NCBI GenBank assembly: GCA_021158245.1
Contig: JAGGVB010000181.1
Coordinates: forward strand, 1-59,903
Direction of reading: 5' to 3'
DNA length: 59,903 nt
DNA from: a bacterium
GTDB taxonomy: Bacteria > Zhuqueibacterota > QNDG01
Shown: piece by piece, positions 51,067 through 59,628 of the stretch
Numbering within the stretch: position 1 is the stretch's first letter
Layout of the letters: each line of letters opens with the position of its first letter
The notes under the pieces: generated by a model
What the model was told of the DNA's origin: nothing
The model's database searches: none
The model's input: the letters and a program-made list of their open reading frames with translations, nothing else
Translations under genes and position numbers: made by a program

Positions 51067-51159
51067 GCAGGATATTATTGAATGACTCTCCGGTTTGTTT
51101 TAGTATTAAGCAGAAGGATTACCGGCATCTGCAAATCTCCGCCCGAAAATGCGATGTAG

Positions 51160-51299
51160 GGGGCTGTGTCAAAAGCCCTAACCCTGTCATTGCGAGCGTC
51201 TTTTTGCGAAGCAATCTCTTCAATTCGTGCTCAATTCCTGAGATTGCCATGTCGCTTTGCTCCTCGTAATGACTTCAAATCGACTTTTGATACAGCCCC
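51160..51299. mobile_element. 140-bp MITE-like element
   Basis: 16-bp terminal inverted repeats (GGGGCTGTGTCAAAAG, 51160-51175, and its complement with one mismatch, 51284-51299) flank a non-coding core. The core has the outward-symmetric segments GTCATTGCGAGC and CGTAATGAC, a pattern found in widespread small interspersed repeats. No transposase. It and short T- and G-tracts fill the 51067-51424 gap before vapB. Confidence 0.75.
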
Positions 51300-51350
51300 T
51301 CAGCAGCCGGTATTTTTTTTGGGGGGGTGCCAGATTTTATGTAAAAACGC

Positions 51351-52903: not shown

Positions 52904-53004
52904 ATCTAAGGGCATAGCATAATCGGTAAACCTGAATTGACACTGGCCTTGCCATGCAAGGGCTGTGACAAGCGGGTTTATCCGAGTTCATGCGATGGTT
53001 ATAA
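52904..53004 (-). other. attC-like site 1 (after DUF6364-PIN cassette)
   Basis: A 101-bp imperfect inverted repeat starting 8 bp after the toxin stop. Outer boxes are TTATAAC (52998-53004) and CTTAGAT (52904-52910, one base from GTTAGAT). Inner arms pair over CAT-GCAT-CGG-TAAACC with extra unpaired bases on one arm, and the core closes on CCTTGC/GCAAGG. The shape is that of an attC hairpin; the unequal arms explain a tRNA-like look. Confidence 0.6.
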
Positions 53005-53012
53005 GGTATTAT

Positions 53013-54740: not shown

Positions 54741-55082
54741 TTATTCATCATAAATAATTGCATCAAGAATAGAGAGTGCTTCATTTAGTACTCCTATAGG
54801 TGCTTTATCTATAAATTTTACCTTTCTTGATCTGTAATCAACTGATTTCATCTGATCTACCATAATAACACCTGAGATAATACCATCTTCAGGAATTTTA
54901 ACATGTAAAGGGATATTACGATTGGTGTTTGTTATTGGACAAACAAATGAAAGTCCCGTTTTTTGATTGAAGATTGTATTAGAAACTACAAGAGCAGGCC
55001 TTCTGCCTTTTTGTTCATGTCCGGATTGAGGATCAAATGTTAAGGCGATAAAATCTCCCTTTTTCGGTATATATTGTTCCAT
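54741..55082 (-). CDS. mazF: MazF/ChpB-type endoribonuclease toxin
   Basis: 113 residues from the ATG at 55082, overlapping mazE as TAATG. PemK/MazF core: KKGDFIALTFDPQSGHEQ, KGRRPALVVSN and VCPITNT. ACA-type mRNA interferases have these motifs. The toxin is neutralised by the upstream MazE. Confidence 0.95.
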   Translation of the reverse strand: MEQYIPKKGDFIALTFDPQSGHEQKGRRPALVVSNTIFNQKTGLSFVCPITNTNRNIPLHVKIPEDGIISGVIMVDQMKSVDYRSRKVKFIDKAPIGVLNEALSILDAIIYDE

Positions 55083-55330
55083 TACCAAACTTCTCCTCCA
55101 ACTGGTTTGCCCCAATCAATTTCTTCTGGCCTATAGTCTTCAGGCATTTGAGAAAGAAGACTTTTTAATTTATATTTTCCACGATTTACAGTTGTCGGTT
55201 TTACAACAATTTTACCATTATGTATAGAAATATCTACATCATCACCGATTGCTACGTGTACTTTACGAAGAATATCTTTAGGAAAACGAACTCCCTGGCT
55301 ATTACCCCATTTTTGTATTTTAGTAATCAT
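55082..55330 (-). CDS. mazE: MazE antitoxin
   Basis: 82 residues: AbrB-fold start ITKIQKWGNSQGVRFPKDIL, the MazE signature, and an acidic C-terminus containing a W and RPEE that fits MazF binding. Promoter at 55367-55395. Confidence 0.95.
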   Translation of the reverse strand: MITKIQKWGNSQGVRFPKDILRKVHVAIGDDVDISIHNGKIVVKPTTVNRGKYKLKSLLSQMPEDYRPEEIDWGKPVGGEVW

Positions 55331-55395: not shown

Positions 55396-55408
55396 GTATA
55401 ATTATTTT

Positions 55409-55502
55409 GCTAACATTTGGCTCTGAGGTGCGGCCAACTAATGCCATCCAGAAGCCATGTTTGATGTAAGAATAAAGGTACGATAATGTCCGCACAGTTA
55501 TT
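55409..55502 (-). other. attC-like site 4 (after AbrB-PIN), weak
   Basis: GTTAGC (55409-55414) ends the site; AATAAC near 55497-55502 is the best partner box. Only TGCGG/CCGCA of the inner arms pairs well. An extra 100 bp, with a GACGG/CCGTC hairpin, lies between it and the vapC stop at 55604. Confidence 0.35.
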
Positions 55503-55603: not shown

Positions 55604-55975
55604 CTACTTGGCAAAATAATTTACTCTTGGCATATTTTGAAAATCATTATCTTGTGTCCAAACTATAGCTTCAAATTTATTTGCTGTTGCCAGAATAATA
55701 CTATCTGCCATTGGGATTTTATTTCTTAAACTAATAACAGCTGCGGACATTGCAATTTCTAATGTTAGATCAACAATTTGCCCTTGTTTCATTAAAGCAA
55801 TACCTTGAAGTGCACTATTTTCATCTTTTTCACGAAGAATGACTTTGAATACCTCATAGATAGTAATTGAGGGAACAATTAATGACTCTACATTTGAAAG
55901 TGGTTCTTCAAACTGACTTGCATTTTTACCACCAGAGAAATACTCAAGCCACCCAGATGAATCTACAATATTCAC
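55604..55975 (-). CDS. PIN-domain toxin (VapC)
   Basis: 123 residues, GTG start overlapping the antitoxin stop by 4 bp. NIVDSSGWLEYF (first acidic Asp), SITIYEVFKV (Glu) and PMADSIILATA (third Asp), ending VWTQDNDF. Typical VapC ribonuclease of a TA pair. Confidence 0.92.
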   Translation of the reverse strand: MNIVDSSGWLEYFSGGKNASQFEEPLSNVESLIVPSITIYEVFKVILREKDENSALQGIALMKQGQIVDLTLEIAMSAAVISLRNKIPMADSIILATANKFEAIVWTQDNDFQNMPRVNYFAK

Positions 55976-56184
55976 ACTCTATCCCCTTCTCTTTCGAAAT
56001 TGATGTCAATTCCTTTTAAAAAACCCTTCATATCAGTTATCTTTCTAACGGGGATAAGTTCAATTCTGTCTTCATATTGCATGACTTGCATTCGTTGGCC
56101 AGGAAGCAACTTTAATGATTCTCTCACATTCTTAGGTATTACGACTTGAAATTTGGGTGAAATTTTTACTGCTTCCATTTTCAA
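55972..56184 (-). CDS. AbrB-type antitoxin (VapB)
   Basis: 70 residues. SpoVT-AbrB domain: ISPKFQVVIPKNVRESLKL, then GQRMQVMQYEDRIEL. Short acidic C-terminus. AAGGAG precedes the ATG by about 8 nt. Confidence 0.92.
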   Translation of the reverse strand: MKMEAVKISPKFQVVIPKNVRESLKLLPGQRMQVMQYEDRIELIPVRKITDMKGFLKGIDINFEREGDRV

Positions 56185-56272: not shown

Positions 56273-56399
56273 GTATAACGGTGCGGTTCAGTGAGTGCAA
56301 AAGCCAAGAGAAATCTCGACAACTGAAGTGATTCCACTGAGCTCTAATAAACCTAAAAACCGGTGCGCTTTTGCATCCACTGCAACCGCATGGTTAGCA
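56273..56399 (-). other. attC-like site 5, best preserved
   Basis: 127 bp starting 9 bp after the Phd stop. Outer boxes TGCTAAC (56393-56399) and GTTATAC (56273-56279) share TAAC/GTTA. Inner arms TGCGGTT-G-CAGTG and CACTG-AACCGCA pair with one extra unpaired G on one arm, then TGCAAAAGC/GCTTTTGCA pairs further in. The loop is variable. This is the standard attC plan: R''-L''-loop-L'-R' with an extrahelical base. Confidence 0.78.
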
Positions 56400-56407
56400 G
56401 GAATTTA

Positions 56408-56629
56408 TTAATTGCCGCGTCTCACTTCTTGCAAGATGTCAATGATTTCTTCTTTCGAGATATCTATCTTTATTCCTTTAACATTAAGAGGAGAAGTTAT
56501 TTTCTTAAAAGGTTTTACAATAAACGACGATCCATCTTTTCTTTTTATTAATACCTCACCTTCAATTTGTGCTTTATTTAAAATAGAAGCAAATTTTTGT
56601 CTGGCCTCTGAAAAAGTATATACTATCAT
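56408..56629 (-). CDS. Phd/YefM-type antitoxin
   Basis: 73 residues. The Phd fold start is MIVYTFSEARQKFASILNKA, followed by a beta-strand IKRKDGSSFIV. It is the downstream gene, overlapping the PIN toxin stop as ATGA, the reverse of the usual antitoxin-first order. Confidence 0.85.
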   Translation of the reverse strand: MIVYTFSEARQKFASILNKAQIEGEVLIKRKDGSSFIVKPFKKITSPLNVKGIKIDISKEEIIDILQEVRRGN

Positions 56630-57024
56630 GGCTCAACCTCGATCGTTTTTATATTTAAAGTCTTTGAAATTGTTTTTAATTTATCATCAAGTGTTAATAG
56701 TGCGGCTTTTTGCCTGATAGCACACTCAATAAAATATGCATCATAAGCATAGATATTATTTTCATATGCAATTGACAGGGCATTTTTTAAATCAATATCA
56801 AGGAATCTTATTGGTATCTTCTGATAGTAATCAATAGCTGTTCTTGCCTGGCTTAATGTTAATCTGTTCCTTTTAAACATCGCAGAAAAGGCATTACTAA
56901 TTTCCCAGTGCAAAGATTGTGGTGCAATCAATTCACATCCGATCGTGTGCTGAATTAATTTATTTTTATGCTTTTCATTTGTGATTACTGCTATGACAAC
57001 AGATGTGTCGATTACGATTAGCAT
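56626..57024 (-). CDS. PIN-domain toxin (VapC-like), toxin-first
   Basis: 132 residues. IVIDTSVVIAVITNE, HWEISNAFSAMF and AYDAYFIECAI carry the PIN acidic residues; C-terminus LLTLDDKLK. Transcribed before its antitoxin, so its expression relies on the operator at 57043-57056. Confidence 0.88.
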   Translation of the reverse strand: MLIVIDTSVVIAVITNEKHKNKLIQHTIGCELIAPQSLHWEISNAFSAMFKRNRLTLSQARTAIDYYQKIPIRFLDIDLKNALSIAYENNIYAYDAYFIECAIRQKAALLTLDDKLKTISKTLNIKTIEVEP

Positions 57025-57101: not shown

Positions 57102-57741
57102 GCTAACAATTCTTATCTTAAATAAACCGAAATTTACTTGAAAAAGTGCCTTTCCATCTGCAAAATGATAATACCCTTATTTTCATTTATTTGATTGAAA
57201 GGAGAATACTATGAAACTCCAAAATCTCGAGATGCCTGTCCCGAGTTTTATACGGGGAAAAGGCACTATATCTCCGATAAATTCGTTATTGGTATTGACC
57301 CGGCTAAAAACAAACACCAGGCCATGGTTCTTGATCCCAAAGGAATTCCTGTCGGGAAATCCTTTTCTTTTCAAAGTTCTTACAACGGTTTCCATTTCAA
57401 ACTCATTCCCTTTCCTGGTTCTTCCTGACTAGCGAATCTATAAATTAGTCGGGCCGAATAATTAGAATCGGCAGCGACGAAATAAAGTCGGGCAGGGAAG
57501 TTTAAACAACCGGGACGGTACTTTGAGACTGCAATAGGTGAAGTGCGTCCGGACTTGAGGGAAAGGTACAAGCTTCTTGAGCTTAAAAGTGACCGTTGTC
57601 AAAGAACGATAATCAATTTAAAGATATACTTTTTACTTGACTTTCAGCAAGTAGACCAAGCTCACCAGCGGTAATGGAGCGTCTCGCACTGAGCCTGTCG
57701 AAGTGCAGCGGAATAGCGGTCAGGTGGAGTGTCTTGTTAGC
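57102..57741 (-). other. attC-like site 6 (after hicBA), split by an IS110 derivative
   Basis: GCTAAC box of R'' (57736-57741) starts 3 bp from the hicA stop; R' GTTAGC is at 57102-57107, so the two boxes are exact complements. L'' contains CTCCACC and L' contains GGTGAG, paired with one extra C. Without the insertion the site would be about 93 bp. The IS remnant sits between L' and R', next to the GTTA core. Confidence 0.7.
57108..57654 (+). mobile_element. IS110-family remnant A (internally deleted)
   Basis: About 547 bp. The left half (frame from 57195 to 57428, stop after the deletion) encodes the IS110 N-terminal DEDD start: FVIGIDPAKNKHQ then VLDPKGIPVGKSF. The right half, in another frame, encodes the C-terminal ETAIGEVRPDLRERYKLLEL block. 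An internal deletion and frame breaks make it non-coding. Right end carries the ACTTG/CAAGT subterminal hairpin. Two shorter copies share the same ends. Confidence 0.75.
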
Positions 57742-57744
57742 GAA

Positions 57745-57972
57745 TTATAATTTTTTCAAGAAATCATTTACTGTTATCCTTGCTTGTTTTAATATATGTG
57801 AAAGGGTTGACCGCTTTATCGGCTTATGCGCCGGAACTATAATTTTTAATACCTCATTTTCAATATGTTTTTGCAACCTTATATGCGAACCTTTTTGTCG
57901 AACTATTACCCACCCATCCCTTTGTAACGCTTTGATGACCTTGTCGTAATTTAAACTCGGCACCTTGCTCAT
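57745..57972 (-). CDS. hicA: HicA-type mRNA interferase toxin
   Basis: 75 residues. dsRBD-like HicA with the catalytic His30 in RQKGSHIRLQKH and the C-terminal TLSHILKQARI. It cleaves mRNA and tmRNA in known relatives. Overlaps hicB by 4 bp (ATGA), hicB first. Confidence 0.92.
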   Translation of the reverse strand: MSKVPSLNYDKVIKALQRDGWVIVRQKGSHIRLQKHIENEVLKIIVPAHKPIKRSTLSHILKQARITVNDFLKKL

Positions 57973-58172
57973 ATCGATAATTCCACTTCTTCAGCGTGGG
58001 TAGCTTTGAAAGTATCATCTGCTACCGGTTCTAAATAAAGTTCAATTGCCTCACGAATATTTTTTAATGCTTCTTCTTTCGTATCGCCTTCTGAAATACA
58101 TCCCGGCAGAGAAGGCACTATAGCTGTATATCCTCCATCATCGCTTGGTTCCAAATAAATTTTCAGTTTCAT
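57969..58172 (-). CDS. hicB: HicB-type antitoxin, short form
   Basis: 67 residues: the degenerate RNase H-like fold with YTAIVPSLPGCISEGDTKEEAL. The usual C-terminal DNA-binding segment is missing or minimal, so transcriptional control may lie elsewhere. Starts only 24 nt after the attC R' core, with AGAGG upstream. Confidence 0.9.
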   Translation of the reverse strand: MKLKIYLEPSDDGGYTAIVPSLPGCISEGDTKEEALKNIREAIELYLEPVADDTFKATHAEEVELSI

Positions 58173-58197: not shown

Positions 58198-58650
58198 GCT
58201 AACGATTCTTATCTTAAATAAGCCGGAATTTACTTGATAAAGTGCTTTTCCGTCTGCAAAATGATAATACCCTTATCTGATTGAAAGGAATATACTATAA
58301 AATTACAATATTCCGGGATAAAAGGCAATTTATTTCCGATAAATTCATTACATCCCTGCCGGGAAATCTTTTTCTCTTCAAAATCTGTGCAGCGGTTTTC
58401 ACTTTAAACTCTGGCAGGGAAGTTTAAACAACCGGGACGGTACATTCGCAATGACTTTGAGACTGCAATAGCCAAGGTGCGTCCGGAGTTCAGGAAAAGG
58501 TACATGCTTCTTGAGATTAAAGAAGAGCGTTTTCAAGAACAAATTCAAAATTATCTTTTATTTTTCTTTTGCTTTTCAGCAGGCAGCCGCGCTTAACCAG
58601 TTGGGTTGAACCTGAGTGAACTCCAGAATCTAATTCCAGGAGCTAAGGTT
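58198..58650 (-). other. attC-like site 7 (after AbrB-PIN), degraded and split
   Basis: R' GTTAGC is at 58198-58203 next to the IS remnant. A second core-like GTTAAGC lies at 58591-58597, followed by GAACCT/AGGTTC arms; the R'' box is lost at the toxin stop. Called from context and one good core. Confidence 0.35.
58204..58585 (+). mobile_element. IS110-family remnant B
   Basis: About 382 bp with the same left end (ATTCTTATCTTAAATAA) and right region (NDFETAIAKVRPEFRKRY) as remnant A, with a larger internal deletion. Non-coding. It occupies most of the 58173-58650 gap. Confidence 0.7.
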
Positions 58651-59064
58651 CTATAGTTGCTCCGGGCAGATCAGCTTTACTGTTGGAAAATATGTTTTGT
58701 ATCTATTTACATCTCGTGTAATTAAGTCCAGTCCAAGTACTGCTGCATGTGCTCCAATATAGAAATCGGGTAAGGGGGATCTCTTTATCCCTTTATTCTT
58801 TCTATACTTTAGATAAACTTTACCGGCCAGAAAAAGAGCTTCTTTAGGAATTTCCAGCATCTGGAATCCACCTTTATGGATGGCTGATTCCAACTCCTCA
58901 ATCTTTCCAAAACCTATAGAGACTTCTGTGTACACAATTGAGTTAATATAGAGCGTTTCGTAAAGGCTATAATTTGCCAATACCGATTCAGACCAATCCG
59001 CCCAATTTGGGTCATCAAGAAAAATGTCCAAAATAACGTTTGAGTCAACAAGAAGGCCCTTCAC
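58651..59064 (-). CDS. PIN-domain toxin (VapC)
   Basis: 137 residues, GTG start, 4-bp overlap with the antitoxin. GLLVDSNVILDIF, YTEVSIGFGK and PLPDFYIGAHA hold the acidic PIN residues; C-terminus LDLITRDVNRYK. Belongs to the last complete TA module. Confidence 0.92.
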   Translation of the reverse strand: MKGLLVDSNVILDIFLDDPNWADWSESVLANYSLYETLYINSIVYTEVSIGFGKIEELESAIHKGGFQMLEIPKEALFLAGKVYLKYRKNKGIKRSPLPDFYIGAHAAVLGLDLITRDVNRYKTYFPTVKLICPEQL

Positions 59065-59288
59065 CTATCCTCCCTTGTTAATGCCATAATCTCATCTGTC
59101 GTCATTTTAACATCTGCAATGCCGCGTAATTTTGCAAATTTACGGGTTGCAGCTTTTTTCCCTTTTAATTTCACTAAAAAGACGCGGCCTTCTTCCTCAA
59201 TAAAATCAACTTCTGTTGCCGGGGTTATCCTTAATTTTTCACGAATGTGCTGGGGAATTGTTACTTGACCTTTTGTAGTTACTCTCAT
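59061..59288 (-). CDS. AbrB-type antitoxin (VapB)
   Basis: 75 residues. TTKGQVTIPQHIREKLRI is the SpoVT-AbrB signature. The C-terminal half has KKAATRKFAKLRGI and acidic residues for toxin contact. SD GGAGG upstream. Promoter and operator at 59299-59349. Confidence 0.93.
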   Translation of the reverse strand: MRVTTKGQVTIPQHIREKLRITPATEVDFIEEEGRVFLVKLKGKKAATRKFAKLRGIADVKMTTDEIMALTREDR

Positions 59289-59366: not shown

Positions 59367-59628
59367 ATTTAACGATTCTTATCTTAAATAAACCGGAATT
59401 TACTTGATAAATTGACTTTCCTAAACAACCGGCACAGCACATCCGCAATGACTTTGAGACTGCAATAGGTGAAGTGCGTCCGGACTTGAGGGAAAGGTAC
59501 ATGCTTTTTGAGCTTAAAAGGGACAGTTTTCAGAGAACAACTTTAAGATTATCTTTTATTTTTCACTTGCTTTTCAGCAAGTAGGTTTGGCTTCATCCGG
59601 CTGCGTCTGCTATAGACCCGGGTTATTA
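59367..59628 (-). other. attC-like site 8, split by an IS110 derivative
   Basis: R' GTTAAAT (59367-59373) is a perfect GTTRRRY core next to the IS. The other half, TAATAACCCGGG with GTC/GAC and CCGG arms, starts at 59628, 7 bp after the stop of the terminal gene. Confidence 0.4.
59374..59584 (+). mobile_element. IS110-family remnant C (shortest)
   Basis: About 211 bp: same left end as A and B, then a junction at AAACAACCGG and the right coding remnant with VRPDLRERYMLFELK. The right end carries the ACTTGCT/AGCAAGT hairpin. Confidence 0.7.

Follow-up and report, generated by a model that had tools for sequence, protein, structure and literature searches.

The question raised by this locus is whether the hairpin near the end of the window (the whole stretch of 59,903 nucleotides that was analysed, which is an entire contig) is an attC recombination site, and in what state the integron around it now stands. 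A preliminary description made from the letters had proposed a near-canonical attC hairpin with a visible extrahelical base at 56273-56399, quoting TGCTAAC and GTTATAC boxes, arms TGCGGTT-G-CAGTG and CACTG-AACCGCA, and a further stem, all of which are present. With a probability of about 95%, this segment is the attC site in which a vapC-antitoxin cassette ends, the cassette belonging to a sedentary integron array on the chromosome of a bacterium from the KSB1 phylum. In this genome (G000) the array is probably a decayed leftover without an integrase of its own or else one cut by the contig end.

The segment was folded as single-stranded DNA with DNA parameters, on both strands, and compared with 200 dinucleotide shuffles. 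The plus strand folds at -24.1 kcal/mol (z -4.94) and the minus strand at -22.7 kcal/mol (z -3.69), with 0 of 200 shuffles as good in either case. On both strands TAAC faces GTTA, an arrangement on which the preliminary description had made its proposal depend, and the fold stacks three stems, 7, 5 and 9 bp long, with a single base bulged out. As the genes and the family model described below both run on the minus strand, this is the top (gene-sense) strand; the bottom strand, which is the one used by integron integrases, is therefore the plus strand, and the extrahelical base is there a C in the 3' arm. The bottom-strand fold has the expected features, an unpaired CA/CC spacer and an L stem of 7+5 bp with one extra base.

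The AAC/GTT core is present in R'' and R', the two copies lying opposite each other in the fold, whereas outside this core TGCTAAC and GTTATAC deviate from the textbook RYYYAAC/GTTRRRY consensus (typical, not required), just the inner four of their seven bases pair, and a scan of the window for the strict motif gave 0 sites. The visible extrahelical base was confirmed as the extra G of the L'' arm, but the A of the neighbouring GA faces a C, so that the other usual extrahelical base, the first, sits within a 2x2 internal loop. The site is thus well formed but lacks one usual extrahelical base. This base, the non-textbook R boxes and the presence of a single match to the family model in the window are counted against the attC reading.

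Table. Features of the attC site and its surroundings, in window coordinates; parts of the site are listed from R'' to R'.
Feature	Position	Strand	Basis
attC site, 127 nt	56273..56399	minus	fold and independent covariance model (66.3 bits, E 4e-16)
R'' box TGCTAAC	56393..56399	minus	sequence; aligns with R'' box of 50 other sites
CA spacer between R'' box and L'' arm TGCGGTT		minus	sequence
L'' arm TGCGGTT-G-CAGTG	56378..56390	minus	fold; TGCGGTT 56390-56384, CAGTG 56382-56378
Extra G, second extrahelical base	56383	minus (= bottom-strand C)	fold; bulge column of family alignment
GA between CAGTG and inner stem 5' arm		minus	sequence
Inner stem 5' arm TGCAAAAGC	56375-56367	minus	fold
Variable terminal loop, 62 nt	56305..56366	minus	alignments
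Inner stem 3' arm GCTTTTGCA	56304-56296	minus	fold
CT between inner stem 3' arm and CACTG		minus	sequence
L' arm CACTG-AACCGCA	56282..56293	minus	fold; CACTG 56293-56289, AACCGCA 56288-56282
CC spacer between AACCGCA and R' box		minus	sequence
R' box GTTATAC	56279-56273	minus	GTTAT- R' boxes common in related family
VapC-type PIN toxin gene, cassette ending in the attC site	56629..57024	minus	Pfam PIN 1.3e-8
Phd/YefM-like antitoxin gene	56408..56629	minus	Pfam PhdYeFM 1.8e-6, under curated cut-off
GTTAGCA box, upstream boundary of vapC cassette, adjoining IS110-type remnant	57102..57108	minus	sequence
Next cassette, AbrB/MazE-type antitoxin and PIN toxin	55604..56184	minus	Pfam
Second, shorter attC-like site (GTTAGCA box)	55405..55475	minus	83% identity over 58 nt with C212
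MazE/PemK (MazF) toxin-antitoxin pair	54741..55330	minus	Pfam
HicB/HicA toxin-antitoxin cassette	57745..58172	minus	Pfam
MazE/AbrB-type antitoxin and PIN toxin cassette	58651..59288	minus	Pfam
IS110-type remnant beside R box	57102..57654	plus	repeats; weak DEDD_Tnp_IS110 match
IS110-type remnant beside R box	58198..58586	plus	repeats
IS110-type remnant beside R box	59368..59584	plus	repeats

A layout scan across the 60-kb window gave the site its best score, 17.5, ahead of a runner-up of different layout at 13.8. BLAST searches with the cassette against 82 genomes of the phylum then recovered a hairpin in an order-mate (G007, contig C103) that is 86% identical over 77 query bases, stands behind a different gene pair and at its R' end runs into a truncated gene. 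From weaker matches, three more hairpins were reached in G007 (C209, C98 and C234) and one in G050 (C286). Because the C103 copy is truncated at its R' end, a six-sequence alignment that included it blurred the outer stems. The covariance model, R1, was seeded from the other four hairpins (L131, L132, L133 and L136). BLAST had led to these from the window site, so they were picked for some likeness to it; even so, the score of the window site lies far beyond chance level, and its sequence played no part in deriving the structure.

R1 matches the window hairpin end to end (positions 1-123 of 123), and its score there falls within the span seen for copies in the G007 arrays; elsewhere in the 60-kb window nothing was convincing, the next matches of 14.5 and 12.3 bits being at chance level. 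Across 12 genomes of the order the number of sites reaches 63 in G007, several of them in tandem at spacings of about 0.8 to 1.6 kb (on contig C142, for example, at 1725, 3297, 4166, 5077 and 9283). The genome of the window has three, the others lying on C160 and C118, and six further genomes of the order have 1 to 8 (G006, G008-G011 and the genus-mate G001, whose sole match is weak). A stretch of the terminal loop with GTGGAATCACT is common to the window site and G007 sites in the alignments. Among 51 R1 matches 92.0% of pair cells keep a standard pair and 239 cells carry two-sided changes. Covariation in the alignment scores 0.567; shuffled alignments give 0.132 and slid partners 0.030-0.061, a gap that is still large given that the 51 rows were fitted to a model that favours the structure and that two of them are the reverse strand of another. 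Structure is kept across the family while sequence varies.

Family sites also hold a characteristic position relative to genes. The median distance from the preceding same-strand ORF stop is 20 nt, with 65% within 50 nt, compared with 402 nt and 9% for random positions and 788 nt and 7% for an opposite-strand mirror control. A strongly folding hairpin placed after an ORF stop might also be a transcription terminator or regulatory RNA element following the toxin-antitoxin operon, but this explanation is already contradicted, and we consider it highly improbable, since the loop is some 60 nt long, the R-box ends are kept throughout the family, and such sites form arrays whose spacing is roughly that of cassettes and whose unpaired bases are conserved. 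Rfam at gathering scores returned only tRNAs in the window and no family in 56273-56399.

From 59871 down to 53013 every gene with a recognisable family is encoded on the minus strand and is part of a toxin-antitoxin system, in the order RHH antitoxin, MazE-type/PIN, HicBA, PIN/Phd, AbrB/PIN, MazEF and DUF6364/PIN (Pfam). The antitoxin ORF of the vapC cassette stops 8 nt before the R'' box, the attC site is in gene orientation, and the next ORF starts 88 nt past it. Canonical attC sites occur on the stretches that carry relatives of this vapC in Chloroflexota, Chlorobiaceae, Thiosymbion, Planctomycetota and Fermentibacteria; the relative in Kouleothrix (Chloroflexota) is flanked by two nearly identical attC copies. 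These associations with attC sites in other phyla argue against a REP-like or MITE-like palindrome unrelated to integrons, as do the single copy found in G000 by BLAST, the divergence of sequence with retention of structure, and the fixed polarity relative to genes; other palindromic repeats do occur nearby (51150-51300 and 57690), yet such an origin has only a very slight chance of being correct.

Those repeats, at 51150-51300 (GTCATTGCGAGC...) and 57685-57705 (CACTGAGCCTGTCGAAGTGC), are probably ordinary intergenic repeats. Another hairpin follows a toxin-antitoxin pair at 52905-53008 (CTTATAAC...GATTATGC; -16.2 kcal/mol); it has no R1 match and could be the decayed form of another type of attC.

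Identification of the window hairpin as an attC site, as the preliminary description had read it, is thus upheld by its sequence and fold, an independent covariance model with compensatory changes across the family, its orientation and its position just 8 nt after a stop, as well as by tandem family arrays in an integrase-bearing relative and a homologue of the hairpin that follows an unrelated pair of genes. The plus strand, once single-stranded, would fold into the hairpin, and an integron integrase would bind the R and L boxes of the folded strand, with the extrahelical base setting polarity. Cutting in the R' box would then lead to excision or insertion of the cassette.

The extrahelical bases of the family show one mild surprise. 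In 49 non-redundant family sites the bulge column has a base with nothing opposite in 42, these being G in 31, C in 5, T in 4 and A in 2 on the top strand; counted over all 49, the second extrahelical position is a top-strand G in 38, and the first is a top-strand A in every site. In the family consensus one arm carries both extrahelical bases, separated by six nucleotides and reading T-N6-C on the bottom strand, so that the second base is mostly C rather than the usual G. T and G six nucleotides apart is the form excised by tested integrases, with some exceptions for VchIntIA; G is found in most sites, and blaVIM-2 was the one site known there to have C, even though with C several integrases excised better (PMC3053210). 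On our reading of their sequences, C also seems to be present in a few attC sites from other phyla, and a bottom-strand C may be common outside clinical integrons.

Whether the site could still recombine depends on an integrase, for which we took the TIGR02249 cut-off as the criterion. In seven of the 12 order genomes an integron integrase passes this cut-off, G007 having two, but none was found in the G000 assembly (233 contigs, 95% complete) or in its genus-mate. G000 does contain two short intI-like fragments, one N-terminal and one C-terminal part, of 38 aa on C131 (locus L010, 459-572; 66% identity) and 47 aa on C31 (locus L012, 2840-2980; 60% identity) relative to an order-mate IntI, the latter with stops in the open frame; we take them to be remains of a lost intI. 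A functioning integron in G000 is therefore not supported. Since the window is an entire contig, an intI beyond its end is possible.

Among the 82 genomes, IntI was not significantly more frequent in those with R1 sites (9/18) than in the others (26/64; Fisher p 0.59). Incompleteness of the genomes and the narrowness of the model may lie behind this result, which is still counted against the attC reading. No attC was found beside the intI genes of order-mates, on contigs that end near intI. At several of these loci intI is followed by a small conserved ORF (about 100 aa, starting MK..LxPGExGT), and the contigs often end shortly after it.

Insertion elements may have had a part in a decay of the array. 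The three IS110-type remnants in the window each start at a TAAC box, on the strand opposite to the toxin-antitoxin genes, and G000 has 31 matches to such remnants in about 30 places. Most of the remnant ends examined begin exactly at TAAC, after R-box-like triplets such as GCC, GTA, GCA and TGC, with decayed flanks; joining the flanks of the three window remnants gave just weak hairpins. The remnants look as if attC R boxes had been their targets. On C212 the counterpart of the shorter attC-like site carries a remnant of this type, and contigs C212, C3 and C209 may be further decayed cassette arrays. A passage of PMC11187229, citing Tetu and Holmes (2008), describes IS1111-attC elements as a known group targeting attC ends. 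The window remnants resemble this group in lying at one end of attC-like sites, but they are decayed remnants, and the likeness is suggestive only.

These observations bear on the possibility that the hairpin is a former attC, no longer recombining, in a decayed cassette cluster without integrase (CALIN), persisting only for want of anything that removed it; this would refine the main reading as to present function and not as to identity. We regard this as somewhat probable: no IntI exceeds the cut-off, IntI-like fragments remain on two contigs, IS110-type remnants adjoin three neighbouring boxes with many more in the genome, and one expected extrahelical base has been lost. On the other side, the stems are nearly perfect, the model score is like that of G007 array copies, and an integrase may lie past the contig end or act in trans. 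Compared with CALIN as defined in PMC9024848 (attC sites clustered without an integron integrase), the locus likewise has cassettes and attC with no integrase on the contig. R1 recognises a single attC in the window, below the default of two, next to which there is the shorter attC-like site, and the contig end may hide an integrase.

Compared by description with VCR-type attC sites of sedentary chromosomal integrons, for example those of the Vibrio cholerae superintegron, the KSB1 family shares a length of about 125 nt, R and L boxes, one-sided bulged bases and a long loop of variable sequence; in both, every cassette is followed by one site, the arrays are large and toxin-antitoxin cassettes are present. 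The KSB1 family differs in phylum, in R' boxes that are mostly GTTAT- and in a bottom-strand second extrahelical base that is mostly C. The attC sites of mobile integrons (aadA and dfrA cassettes) have the same architecture, with two extrahelical bases six nucleotides apart as in the KSB1-family consensus, but the KSB1 family has a longer loop and T-N6-C in place of the usual T-N6-G (PMC3053210).

A list of integron-bearing taxa (PMC8618304) does not name KSB1, and none of the papers searched brings integron, attC and KSB1 together; the window attC adds this candidate phylum to the taxa with integrons. It is conceivable, if a little short of probable, that KSB1-phylum bacteria carry large chromosomal integrons whose attC sites are mostly of the reportedly better excised T-N6-C form, and that in the lineage of the window the arrays were dismantled by an IS110-type element inserting at the R box. 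With a model and an array at hand, the attC family offers a natural comparison for the role of the second extrahelical base, and within the window the attC site pins down one boundary of a cassette and accounts for the succession of toxin-antitoxin pairs.
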